Assembly (NCBI RefSeq): GCF_013036045.1
Contig: NZ_WTPX01000027.1
Location: forward strand, 1 to 41,659
Source: Alienimonas chondri
Lineage (GTDB): Bacteria > Planctomycetota > Planctomycetia > Planctomycetales > Planctomycetaceae
Direction: 5' to 3'
DNA length: 41,659 bases
Under the pieces are notes generated by a model. That model ran no database searches. It had not been told where the DNA came from and was given only the letters and a program-made list of their open reading frames with translations. Below, in pieces: positions 7,688 through 34,549 of the stretch (position 1 is the first letter of the stretch; every line of letters begins with the position of its first letter). The position numbers and the translations under genes were made by a program.

Positions 7688-8421
7688 GCCGGGAAGATCC
7701 GCTTGTAAATCTCCGCTAACGGCAGCGTCGCCGCGGGCGCCGCCAGCGAGACGGACGCTTCGAGATCGGTCGTCCGCGTCACGGCCCATGCCGAGGGTTC
7801 GTTCGCCCCGTTCCCGCCCGACGCCCGACGATGGTGCAGCACGTTCGGCTCGTCCTGCGCGACGACGAGGTAATCGGTGACGCTGGGAATCGAGAGATAG
7901 TCCGCCGGTTTCTCTCGTAGATCGACGGCTTCCGTGCCCTCGGAGAGCACCTCGATACAGACGGACGGATTGAGCAGAACGAGTTCCCGATCCCGCGGAT
8001 GATCGGCGTAGCGGGCGGGGAGCCGAGTCAGCACGACATCCGGGAAGCGGCGCCGGCCCGTCAGGCAGACCACCTCCAGCGCCTGCGAATCGATTTGCCA
8101 CACGTCCTGATCGAGGGCCGCGATCAACAGCCCCATCAGGTTGGTGACGATCCGGCTGTGAAGTGCGGTGGCCAAGGCAAAGCCTTTGCGTTCGTTCGAG
8201 AGGCCGTCATGTTCCGGGAATCCAAACCGCGGCCAAACTTCCCCCAACGGCTCGCCGTCGCGAGTTTCCTCCGTCATGCCCAGCCACTCGACCCGCGTGC
8301 CGGGATCCTCGGCGGCGGCTTCAAACTCCGCGCGGGTCATCAGCAGACGCGGCGGGGTGGCGGGAGATGGCAGCTCGCTCGCCGGGCCGGCGGCCGACGG
8401 CGGGGTGAGGGCGGCGGACAT
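7684..8421 (-). CDS. Uma2 family endonuclease-like protein, 245 aa
   Basis: The Uma2 (DUF820) family has a PD-(D/E)XK nuclease fold and is greatly expanded in cyanobacteria and planctomycetes; its biological role is not settled. The signature is visible: RRFPDVVLTR with Asp128, then PSVCIEVLSEGTEAVDLREK with Glu157 and Lys171, followed by YLSIPSVTDYLVVAQDE, the usual DYxxI..V.EYW-like end of the core. The first 25 residues are low-complexity Ala/Pro. All three candidate active-site residues are present, so the fold looks intact. The gene overlaps membrane protein D by 4 bases (GTGA). Confidence 0.87.
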   Translation of the reverse strand: MSAALTPPSAAGPASELPSPATPPRLLMTRAEFEAAAEDPGTRVEWLGMTEETRDGEPLGEVWPRFGFPEHDGLSNERKGFALATALHSRIVTNLMGLLIAALDQDVWQIDSQALEVVCLTGRRRFPDVVLTRLPARYADHPRDRELVLLNPSVCIEVLSEGTEAVDLREKPADYLSIPSVTDYLVVAQDEPNVLHHRRASGGNGANEPSAWAVTRTTDLEASVSLAAPAATLPLAEIYKRIFPA

Positions 8422-30689: not shown

Positions 30690-30762
30690 AGCTCGCGGCG
30701 GGACTCGAACCCGCAACCTTCGGTTTACAAAACCGATGCTCTGCCAGTTGAGCTACACGAGC
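30690..30762 (-). tRNA. trnT: tRNA-Thr (TGT anticodon)
   Basis: The acceptor arms GCTCGTG and CGCGAGC pair with one G-U, the anticodon stem TCGGT/ACCGA encloses TTTGTAA with anticodon TGT, and the T arm has GGTTCGAGTCC. The discriminator is U. It is the first gene of the tRNA-tuf-sec-nusG run. Confidence 0.96.
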
Positions 30763-30826: not shown

Positions 30827-30854
30827 AGTCTAGCAGCCCGACACGCCGCCGCAA
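30827..30854 (-). promoter_or_regulatory. Candidate promoter of the tRNA-tuf transcript
   Basis: On the minus strand TTGCGG (30854-30849) and TAGACT (30832-30827) are separated by 16 bases and lie about 65 bases upstream of the first tRNA, with a GC-rich stretch (CTCGGCCCG) after the -10 box, typical of stringently controlled promoters. The -35 side lies in the 29-base repeat also found at 32296-32324. Confidence 0.42.
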
Positions 30855-30865
30855 GTCGAGGTTCG
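30837..30865. repeat. 29-bp direct repeat, copy 1
   Basis: This 29-base segment (starts CCCGACACGCCGCCGC, ends TCGAGGTTCG) recurs without mismatch at 32296-32324. Copy 1 lies upstream of the zinc-ribbon membrane protein gene and inside the candidate tRNA promoter; copy 2 lies upstream of its shorter paralogue. Confidence 0.85.
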
Positions 30866-30952
30866 GTTCGAACCGATCGCGCCTTCGACGCTGCTACCAC
30901 GCGATCCTTCCCCCAGTCTCGCGACGTTCGCCATACGTAGACATTGGCATAG

Positions 30953-31951
30953 ATGGCTTCAGAAACGACCTGTCCCACCTGCGGCGCCGCTGTGGCGAAG
31001 GACAGCGGCTCCGGCCGGTGGCGGGTCTGTCCGCGCTGCCGGGACATGTTTGACGCAGACACGGCCGATACGAAGGCCGACGAGCGTCCCGCGCCGATCG
31101 TCGTGTTCGAAAGCGTCGACCCGGAGACCGCCCTCGAAAGCGACGACTCGGGGATCATCGTCATCAAGTCGTCCGACAAGCCGCGGCGTCGCTCGGGCTC
31201 CGCGGAATCGACCGCAGACCCGGCCGGGGAACGCGGAGCCCGGGAGTCGGTGCGGAAACGCACCAAGTCATCGTCTGCCAATAGGTCATCGCCCGCCGAC
31301 AAGTCGTCGTCCGCCAAACAGCGTCGTCGCCCTCAAGCGAGCCGACCTCCAACGAAACGCAAGTCGTCCGGTCCGAACCCGCGACGGGACAAGCGTCCGC
31401 CCGTTGAACCCAGCGATTGGCTGACCGGCGACGGGCTGGACGACATCGATTGGGAGGACGATTCCGCCGCCCCGTTGCCGCCGCCGCGGGCTGTCGTCCG
31501 AAAGGAGCGGGAGCGACCGCGACCCAAGCGGCCCAGGCAACGGAAGCGGCCGGCGTCGAACGGGGATCTCTCAGCGAACGTCGGGTTGGGAATCATGGTG
31601 ATCCTGACGCTGCTCATGGTCGGCCCGCCGTTGTTGACGATTTCCAACCAAGTCGAGGCGGGCCGGGGGCCGACGGTGGTGGAGGTCGTCCGGTGGGTCC
31701 TGACCGCCCTATTGCTGATCGGGTTGTGGAGCGGCTCGACCTTCGTCCGGCTCGTTTGGTGCGTCCTGATGTGGTTCGTGGCGCTAATCCTCAGCGGCGT
31801 CACTCTGATCGCCTTGGGGGGCGGCGATCCCCGATCGCCCTTGCTGATCATCTCGACCGGCATCTACGTCGCGGCCGTCTTCGTGCTGACGCTGATGGTC
31901 TACAACCCCTGTTTCAACGCGTTCATGGAACGCCGACGCGGCGAGCGGTGA
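30953..31951 (+). CDS. Zinc-ribbon multi-pass membrane protein, 332 aa
   Basis: The N-terminus is a CxxC...CxxC zinc ribbon (TCPTCGAAVAKDSGSGRWRV, then CPRCRDMF; Cys pairs near residues 7-10 and 27-30). It is followed by a long, disordered Ser/Lys/Arg/Asp-rich linker (about 35-205) and by four hydrophobic segments (near 206-225, 240-255, 262-285 and 295-315) ending in YNPCFNAFMERRRGER. The membrane part is homologous to the 32371-32769 protein (VVEVVRWVLTALLLIGLW versus VTDVIRWALTAGLLWGLW). The linker is basic and could bind nucleic acid or a partner protein; function is unknown. Confidence 0.8.
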   Translation: MASETTCPTCGAAVAKDSGSGRWRVCPRCRDMFDADTADTKADERPAPIVVFESVDPETALESDDSGIIVIKSSDKPRRRSGSAESTADPAGERGARESVRKRTKSSSANRSSPADKSSSAKQRRRPQASRPPTKRKSSGPNPRRDKRPPVEPSDWLTGDGLDDIDWEDDSAAPLPPPRAVVRKERERPRPKRPRQRKRPASNGDLSANVGLGIMVILTLLMVGPPLLTISNQVEAGRGPTVVEVVRWVLTALLLIGLWSGSTFVRLVWCVLMWFVALILSGVTLIALGGGDPRSPLLIISTGIYVAAVFVLTLMVYNPCFNAFMERRRGER

Positions 31952-32006
31952 CGATTGATCGTCACCTCCCGCCGCGTCGCGGACCGTCGAGTGCATCCTC
32001 GCCGCA

Positions 32007-32090
32007 TTACCGATCGTGCAGGCCGGGGACTTCCAGGCGGGCGCCCTCGGCGTGCTTCTTGAGCTTCCGCAACGCCCAACCCTTGAGCTG
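32007..32090 (-). pseudogene. Relic of the sigma factor 3' end
   Basis: Read on the minus strand this stretch encodes QLKGWALRKLKKHAEGARLE and then VPGLHDR followed by TAA. The intact sigma gene ends QLEGRALRKLKKHAEGARLE, VPGLHDR, TAA (32861-32944). DNA identity over about 84 bases is around 90 percent. Upstream of it the similarity stops, so it is a truncated duplicate. Confidence 0.85.
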
Positions 32091-32201
32091 CAAGACCGCA
32101 CGACCGCCCGCCCCGATTGTCGCCGAACCTTCAAGTCACGCCCCCGCCGGAAGCCCCGGCGACCGGACGTCGCCGATCACGGCACTTCATTGGCGGGGCT
32201 T

Positions 32202-32285
32202 AGAGTCGGCACGCTCGTGCTATGGCTCCTGCTGTACAACCGCTGCACGACCGCATTCTTGGAGCGGCGGCGGGGCGAGCGATAG
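32202..32285 (+). pseudogene. Relic of a membrane protein 3' end
   Basis: The frame reads VGTLVLWLLLYNRCTTAF, LERRRGER and TAG. The intact gene at 30953-31951 ends VAAVFVLTLMVYNPCFNAF, MERRRGER. So the last 27 codons of a paralogue survive, without a start or the preceding membrane segments. Confidence 0.75.
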
Positions 32286-32295
32286 CGCGAGACAA

Positions 32296-32324
32296 CCCGA
32301 CACGCCGCCGCAAGTCGAGGTTCG
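32296..32324. repeat. 29-bp direct repeat, copy 2
   Basis: This copy is identical to 30837-30865. It begins 10 bases after the membrane protein relic and ends 46 bases before the next intact gene, so it marks the boundary of a duplicated unit. Confidence 0.85.
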
Positions 32325-32370
32325 CTCGGCAGAAGTTCCCAGCGTTCCGCCGGGGCGTTACGGTTCCAGA

Positions 32371-32769
32371 ATGAGCGAACCGGAGACTTCGCATTCCGCA
32401 TCCGAAGCCGCGGATGTTTCCGCGGGGCGGGCGATCTTCTGGGGAGTCGTTGCGGTCACGCTGCTGCTCAGCATGGTCGGCCTCGGCATTCGCCTGCTGC
32501 TCGGCAAGCCGCTCATGGGCGTGACGGACGTCATTCGATGGGCGTTGACCGCCGGCCTGCTGTGGGGGCTGTGGAGAGGAAGTCGCACGTCCCGGGCCTT
32601 GTTGGCGATCTGCTTCGGCCTCGGCCTCTTCTACACGGTCGGCCCCGCCTTGCGGGGCGATTTGGTCTCCGCCTCTCTCACCGTCGTCCTGGGAGGGCAG
32701 GTGATCGCCCTGATGAGTTCGCCGGTCGGGGACTTCTGCGACGAAATGAAGCGACGGCGGGAGGTTTGA
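32371..32769 (+). CDS. Small membrane protein, paralogue of the zinc-ribbon protein, 132 aa
   Basis: It has four hydrophobic segments after a short acidic N-terminus (SEPETSHSASEAADVS). The second (VIRWALTAGLLWGLWRGS) matches the corresponding segment of the 30953-31951 protein, and the protein ends in the basic tail EMKRRREV, much as the relative ends in ERRRGER. The zinc ribbon and linker are absent. It is convergent with the sigma factor gene, 91 bases apart. Function is unknown. Confidence 0.75.
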   Translation: MSEPETSHSASEAADVSAGRAIFWGVVAVTLLLSMVGLGIRLLLGKPLMGVTDVIRWALTAGLLWGLWRGSRTSRALLAICFGLGLFYTVGPALRGDLVSASLTVVLGGQVIALMSSPVGDFCDEMKRRREV

Positions 32770-32860
32770 CCTCCCGCCGTCGCGAACCCTGATCCAGCCG
32801 CCTCCCTCATTCGGCGCGCCGCCTGACGGCGACGGCGAAGCGGGGGGCGCTCATCCGGGT

Positions 32861-34549
32861 TTACCGGTCGTGCAGGCCGGGGACTTCCAGGCGGGCGCCT
32901 TCGGCGTGCTTTTTGAGCTTCCGCAACGCCCGGCCTTCGAGCTGGCGGATGCGTTCCTTCGTGACGCCGAAGCGGTTGCCGACCTGCTCCAACGTTTGCG
33001 GTTCGCTGCCCTGCTCAAGCCCGTAGCGGTAGCGGAGGATGTCCCGCTCCCGGTCGTCCAGCTCCATCAGGATGTCGCCGATCACCTTCCGCTGGCGGTT
33101 GTTGGTCAGCTCGTCCATGTAGGGGTTCGCGCGGTCCTCCTTGGAGAACTGAAAGACCTCCTCCTTGCCGGTGCGGAACCGGTCGAGCTGGCGATGCTCC
33201 TGCGGGATACTGCGGGCGAAGTTCTTCATGATCGCCCAGGTGGCGTACGTGCTGAACTTGTTGCCTTTGGTGTAGTCGAACTTTTCGATCGCCCGCATCA
33301 GCGAGACGTTGCCGTCGCTGACCAGGCTGAAGAAGTTCGCCCCCGGCTTGATGTGCCGCTTACCGATCGAGACGACCAGCCGCAGGTTGGACTGCGTGAG
33401 GAAGTTCTTCACGTCGATCGCTTCCCGCGTCCAGGCTTCCAGGCGGTCGAGCTGCTCCTCCGTCGGGTCGCTCTCGCCGATCTCCTCCCGCAGCGTCGCC
33501 GCTTTGAACTTGAGGTAGTTCATCTTGCGGAACCAGTACTGCTCGTCTTCGCGAGTCAGCAGCGGGTAGTTGTAGAGACTGGCCAGATAGGGCGGCAGAC
33601 CGCTGGGCACGCGGATCCGGCGGTGCGGTTTCTCCTTCACCGGCGGTTCGCAGAGGATGACCTCGTCCGCGTCCGGCGTGTGGAACTCCGGGGAGTCCAT
33701 GTACGCCGGCGGGTCGCCCATCACCTCTTCCGCACGCAGTTCGTGCAGCGCCCGCTTGATGATCGGCTTGGTGCGGCCGAACGTCTTCGCCAGCCGGGCC
33801 AGCGTCACGCCGCGGCGGCGACGGCGGAGAATCTCCTCTTTCTCCGCCCGGGTCAGATCGCCGGGACGCACGCGGAAGACGGGGCGGTCCGGGTTCGCTC
33901 GCTCGAACTCGCGGAGGAGGGTGCGAATCGACTCCGGGCTTCGGCCGAACTCTTCGGAGAGCTGCTCCGCGATCTTCGGCGGCGTGAATCCGCTGTTCGC
34001 CAGGCTGCGAGCCTTGCGGACGATGCGCCCCCGGTCCGCGTCGGAGAGGGAGACGGACTTCCGGCCCTGCTCGATGACGTCGGCGTGATCACGGACGAAC
34101 CGATCGACCGTGCTCTGCAGGAAGCCGACCCGGCGGCGGCCGTCGAGCTTGAGCTTGCGACTGACCAGCCCGCGGTCCCGCCAGCGATCGACCGTCTTCC
34201 CAGAGACGCCCAGCTTGCGGGCGATTTCGTCGACGGTCAGCACCGGTTCACCCACTTCCTCCGCAGACAGGCCCACGGAGGTGGAGAGGTCTTCGGCGAA
34301 CAGACGGAGATCGCGGAGGGCGTCCTCGCCGCGGAAGGTCGCTTCGCCGTCCGCTTCCGCGGCGGCGGGCACGTCGCCCCCGGCCCCGTCCAACGATCGT
34401 CTCAGATCGGTGGCGGCGTAGGCGGCGTCCGGGTCGAGGCGGCCGGCGAGTCGCTCGGCACGGCGCACCCGGGCGAGTTGCACCTCGCGCGGGGTTCCGT
34501 CAATGTCGTCGGCGGTTAGGTTCTTGAGATCGGGAATCGAGTAGCTCAT
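32861..34549 (-). CDS. Sigma-70 family factor with extra N-terminal HTH segments
   Basis: This is a 562-residue sigma factor. Region 1.2 is near 318-350 (LPPYLASLYNYPLLTREDE), region 2 near 385-450 (NLRLVVSIGKRHIKPGANFF, then FDYTKGNKFSTYATWAIMKN with the -10 recognition part), and region 4 near 490-550 (DDRERDILRYRYGL, GNRFGVTKERIRQLEGRALR for the -35). Region 3 is essentially missing. The N-terminal 280 residues hold an excisionase-like HTH (DEIARKLGVSGKTVDRWRDR, 107-126) and two further HTH-like parts (about 186-212 and 238-270). It is probably an alternative, planctomycete-type group 2-like sigma and not the housekeeping one, though that is inference. Confidence 0.9.
   Translation of the reverse strand: MSYSIPDLKNLTADDIDGTPREVQLARVRRAERLAGRLDPDAAYAATDLRRSLDGAGGDVPAAAEADGEATFRGEDALRDLRLFAEDLSTSVGLSAEEVGEPVLTVDEIARKLGVSGKTVDRWRDRGLVSRKLKLDGRRRVGFLQSTVDRFVRDHADVIEQGRKSVSLSDADRGRIVRKARSLANSGFTPPKIAEQLSEEFGRSPESIRTLLREFERANPDRPVFRVRPGDLTRAEKEEILRRRRRGVTLARLAKTFGRTKPIIKRALHELRAEEVMGDPPAYMDSPEFHTPDADEVILCEPPVKEKPHRRIRVPSGLPPYLASLYNYPLLTREDEQYWFRKMNYLKFKAATLREEIGESDPTEEQLDRLEAWTREAIDVKNFLTQSNLRLVVSIGKRHIKPGANFFSLVSDGNVSLMRAIEKFDYTKGNKFSTYATWAIMKNFARSIPQEHRQLDRFRTGKEEVFQFSKEDRANPYMDELTNNRQRKVIGDILMELDDRERDILRYRYGLEQGSEPQTLEQVGNRFGVTKERIRQLEGRALRKLKKHAEGARLEVPGLHDR

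Follow-up and report, generated by a model that had tools for sequence, protein, structure and literature searches.

Recently duplicated flanks around an older membrane gene at the 3′ end of a sigma-70 family gene in Alienimonas chondri

The repeated sequences around a small membrane gene next to a sigma-70 family gene of Alienimonas chondri are the scar of an ordinary rearrangement, and this rearrangement is not a simple tandem duplication. With roughly even confidence, we attribute the scar to an additive recombination of the one-sided, homology-facilitated illegitimate kind, in which the partner was a close relative's version of the locus. The original prediction had been a tandem duplication of a block of repeat, membrane gene and sigma gene, followed by deletion of the inner sigma copy. 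The recent duplication of the flanks stood up to the analysis; copying of the membrane gene together with them was not supported.

The window analysed was the whole of contig NZ_WTPX01000027.1 (41,659 bp) from the 5,295,625-bp draft genome (355 contigs) of A. chondri LzC2, a cultured type strain. The sister genome used for comparison was that of Alienimonas californiensis CA12 (5,475,215 bp). The features of the locus are listed in Table 1. Apart from its right-hand end, where the REP-like repeat lies, the added DNA has no second copy in the A. chondri genome.

Table 1. Features between the tRNA cluster and the sigma-70 family gene in the A. chondri window
Feature	Position	Strand	Description
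tRNA-Thr(TGT)	30690..30762	-	First gene of the Thr-Tyr-Gly-Thr tRNA cluster; ARAGORN and synteny in relatives
Repeat A, original copy	30834..30865		Minus-strand -35-like TTGCGG within the repeat
M1	30953..31951	+	332 aa; Cys4 zinc-ribbon-like N-terminus, charged low-complexity middle, 4-TM C-terminal domain
Hairpin over M1 stop codon	31934..31979		z -4.8; kept in A. californiensis
Relic of native sigma 3′ end	32007..32090	-	Last 27 codons and stop; orthologous position beside M1
Added DNA	32091..32860		770 bp; missing from A. californiensis
M3, 3′ fragment of M1-like gene	32215..32285	+	72% nucleotide identity to M1 over 67 bp
Repeat A′, second copy	32293..32324		-35-like hexamer kept, -10-like hexamer absent
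M2	32371..32769	+	132-aa 4-TM membrane protein without zinc ribbon
Hairpin over M2 stop codon	32751..32783		Perfect 15-bp; z -6.8; terminator-like for the sigma transcript
Half REP/BIME-like dispersed repeat	32814..32849		66 copies in A. chondri, 73 in A. californiensis
Sigma-70 family gene, intact	32861..34549	-	562 aa; long N-terminal extension with helix-turn-helix-like matches; has the new 3′ end

Close relatives had been proposed as the place to look for a single-copy ancestral state, and this state was present in the sister species. The order in A. californiensis is tRNAs, A, M1, 52 bp and sigma gene, and M2, A′ and the relic are all absent. A single alignment spanned M1, the spacer and the relic (31417-32091 against A. 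californiensis 7722-8383) and was followed by a jump of 854 bp. Because the alignment is continuous through these three parts and pairs the relic with the A. californiensis sigma end, the relic is the native sigma end, displaced from its gene and still in its original place, and 32091-32860 and the second sigma end are added DNA. Elsewhere in the class, at loci where the tRNAs were located, the Thr-Tyr-Gly-Thr tRNA cluster mostly lay 80-520 bp beyond the sigma gene, with one gap of 1.1 kb, and no recognisable M gene stood between the two. In Alienimonas, M1 sits between the sigma gene and the tRNA cluster and is convergent with sigma. The succession of sigma gene and Thr-Tyr-Gly-Thr cluster, often with tRNA-Trp further on, is common to many planctomycete genomes.

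All features named in the original prediction were present at, or very close to, the positions given there, the two repeated flanks among them. The exact repeat of 29 bases (30837-30865 and 32296-32324) is part of a 32-bp repeat that has a single mismatch (30834-30865 and 32293-32324), and A and A′ were its sole two copies in the 5.3-Mb genome when up to 3 mismatches were allowed. The relic, expected as an 84-base copy at about 90 percent identity, matched the sigma end at 77 of 84 positions (92%; 32007-32090 against 32861-32944). A self-comparison of the region, suggested at the outset, returned self-BLAST E values of 6e-10 for the A/A′ pair and 5e-30 for the relic and the sigma end, and the succession of membrane-gene end and sigma end was seen twice, as claimed.

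The duplicated flanks were used to place the addition relative to the species split. The relic and the sigma end differ from each other at 7 of 84 sites, and from A. californiensis at 16 and 15 sites respectively, the remaining differences being common to both. Changes on the sigma side numbered 3, all at third codon positions, and those on the relic side numbered 4, of which 2 were not. Because the two copies differ less from each other than either does from A. californiensis, these comparisons date the addition, barring gene conversion, to after the A. chondri/A. californiensis split. The same timing is given by A and A′, which match at 31 of 32 positions, the A of A. californiensis being visibly more different. 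Together with the single-copy sister species, these identities support A and the sigma 3′ end as recent duplicates and bear out that part of the original prediction. The relic itself looks like non-functional debris; a role as a functional antisense element was considered, and the genome sequence offered no evidence in its favour. The private changes of the relic also weigh against an assembly error that joined alternative alleles. A draft genome in several hundred contigs leaves room for such an error, but a mixture of strains is unlikely in a cultured type strain, and we find this explanation hardly credible.

The membrane genes did not share the age of their flanks. The flank differences were 3% for A/A′ (1/32) and 8% for relic and sigma end (7/84), with a pooled 95% upper bound of 13%. 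If one block had been duplicated, M1 and M2 should differ about as much as the flanks, at most by ~13%. Instead, only 39% of their aligned residues match, and roughly one in two alignable codon bases is different. In a tree of 13 proteins that included other planctomycete homologues, M2 fell outside the pair formed by M1 and A. californiensis M1 (split 97/99), and a topology deriving M2 from A. chondri M1 was rejected (AU p 0.003, and 0.014 without the two longest branches). An older clade of M1, A. californiensis M1 and M2 was marginally rejected (AU p 0.04). M2 stands on a long branch, and removal of two long branches placed it weakly beside the M1 pair. On this evidence, M2 predates the separation of the two Alienimonas species, and it could still have come from an old duplication within the genus.

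These results bear directly on a tandem duplication of A, membrane gene and sigma gene in which the inner sigma copy was deleted and the second membrane copy diverged fast. Such a duplication would give the doubled A and sigma end in the right order, and the single-copy state that it expects in a relative was found. The similarly recent divergence that it expects for all parts of the block was not found, the divergence between M1 and M2 being far above that of the flanks and the AU tests speaking against M2 as a copy of M1. Duplication followed by one deletion also fails as a full account of the locus, since it does not produce M3 between the relic and A′. We consider it improbable.

M3 had been predicted as a third membrane-gene 3′ fragment at 32202-32285, and DNA-level support for it was obtained over 32215-32281 (67 nt), which shares 72% identity with M1 positions 31881-31947 (score 39; best of 300 shuffles, 28), with a stop codon at 32285. 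With 19 differences from M1 over 67 positions (28%), M3 is of greater age than the flanks (Fisher p 0.002 in comparison with the relic). The stretch 32091-32201 had no significant further homology to the sigma gene, M1, M2 or the tRNA region (best 7/300 shuffles in ten comparisons). The age of M3 is relevant to a two-step history, in which a recent local tandem duplication from A to the sigma end was followed by replacement of the second membrane copy with an unrelated M2. Young flanks around an old gene would then arise without a donor allele for the flanks, but two recent events would be required at one spot and M3 is too old to be a remnant of the replaced copy. This history is unlikely, though it deserves some weight.

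Homology between the two membrane genes was confirmed for the proteins (score 84; best of 1000 shuffles, 62) but not for the DNA, where the similarity of 32325-32860 to 30866-32006 was not significant, 50 of 300 shuffles being equally good. Alignments and profile searches indicated a common 4-TM domain with a motif of the type LT--LL---W-G---R and a basic C-terminal tail, the TM count of M1 and M2 being read by eye from the sequence. No Pfam family scored over its cut-off for the M1/M2 family, and NCBIfam gave no match. The M1 orthologue of A. californiensis lies at the same position and has 81% amino acid identity in the TM domain. The layout of M1, with a Cys4 zinc-ribbon-like N-terminus and a 4-TM domain, also occurs in a protein of another genus (L173). 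The best relative found for M2 was a protein from another genus (G008), closer to it than M1. A first impression that M2 was confined to the A. chondri locus was dropped after a wider profile search found further homologues; some hits of that search, judged by eye to be ammonium-transporter-like false positives, were excluded from the tree. M2 had no match in plasmids and phages. M2 may be expressed as a small membrane protein.

Under additive one-sided recombination, a segment of ~0.85 kb would have been inserted within the final 84 bp of the gene for sigma after the two species separated. The segment would have provided a new sigma 3′ end, so that the gene stayed intact and the native end was left as an 84-bp relic beside M1, and it would also have brought A′, M2 and the M1-like fragment M3. 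We infer that one side of the segment was joined by pairing of homologous sigma sequences and the other side illegitimately, at 32090. The most likely source is a variant of this locus carried by a close relative, because close copies of the locus's own flanks surround old, divergent membrane genes. The relic stops abruptly at 32090 and the other copy runs on as an intact sigma gene, an arrangement compatible with homology-facilitated illegitimate recombination without being exclusive to it. No donor allele was present among the two Alienimonas genomes, the 770-bp insert had only REP-like and chance-level matches in 100 genomes of the family, and no mosaic boundary was demonstrable in the sigma gene. 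A donor of the same layout needs at least one further rearrangement, because M3 rather than tRNA-operon sequence lies upstream of A′.

The short lengths of the duplicated flanks (32 and 84 bp) and their origin within 1.5 kb would also suit template switching during microhomology-mediated break-induced replication, with A′ and the sigma end as patches from the neighbourhood that join an insert with M3 and M2. The half palindromic REP-like repeat at the junction of M2 and sigma could then mark the break site. The relic, however, is the native end and not a patch, and template switching appears rather unlikely. An insert that restores its target gene and lies between direct repeats of that gene's 3′ end likewise recalls a small element that integrated site-specifically at the sigma 3′ end, with the 84-bp repeats as att sites. 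Against this, the 770 bp hold only M2 and the M3 fragment, with no integrase or excisionase, M2 matches no plasmid or phage, and the insert has no second copy in the genome; integration of this kind is very improbable. On a further reading, the interval between sigma 3′ end and tRNA operon might be a small exchange site of Alienimonas, where divergent 4-TM membrane genes convergent with sigma are swapped between strains along with the sigma 3′ end and leave stacked relics, the membrane protein being a functional partner of the sigma factor. We regard this reading as quite improbable.

Putative signals were also located around the duplicated sequences. On the minus strand, the -35-like and -10-like elements TTGCGG-16-TAGACT correspond to CCGCAA at 30849-30854 within A and AGTCTA at 30827-30832 just outside it, and both are present in A. 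californiensis. These elements were read by eye and were not reported by a consensus scan; repeat A probably overlaps the promoter region of the tRNA operon. The hairpin at 31934-31979 is probably a bidirectional end signal between convergent genes. The strong hairpins across the M1 and M2 stop codons both face the convergent sigma gene. An Rfam search gave no meaningful match. Several helix-turn-helix-like matches lie in the N-terminal half of the sigma protein. The sigma regions of this protein also hit MzaA from the MZA anti-phage system in NCBIfam and PADLOC, with a score far under the NCBIfam cut-off. This match probably reflects just sigma-70 homology.

Copies of the REP-like repeat (32814-32849; loci L138-L166) were counted at no more than 3 mismatches to a 29-nt core, and the reversed control gave 0. 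Like REP/BIME repeats, the element has units of ~29-36 nt, occurs in dozens of copies and forms many head-to-head inverted pairs ~20 bp apart; unlike them, it is present as a single half at the M2/sigma junction, the only one in the window.

In the orphan immunity-gene arrays of the Vibrio cholerae type VI system, displaced gene 3′ ends have been described and homology-facilitated illegitimate recombination has been proposed (PMC5361080). The A. chondri locus resembles these arrays in that a module anchors in a conserved gene region and adds a small gene, while the old 3′ end and the old neighbour remain downstream. It differs in its anchor, here a sigma-factor gene to which a membrane gene is convergent, in the single event, in the absence of effector-immunity logic and in that no donor was found. 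With tandem duplication and partial deletion it shares directly repeated flanks, a truncated gene copy and a single-copy sister species, but the genes enclosed by the repeats did not arise recently from one another. The locus provides a small case, dated in relative terms, in which one gene received a new neighbour at its end and remained intact, and it indicates that a gene flanked by near-identical repeats is not necessarily a duplicate itself.
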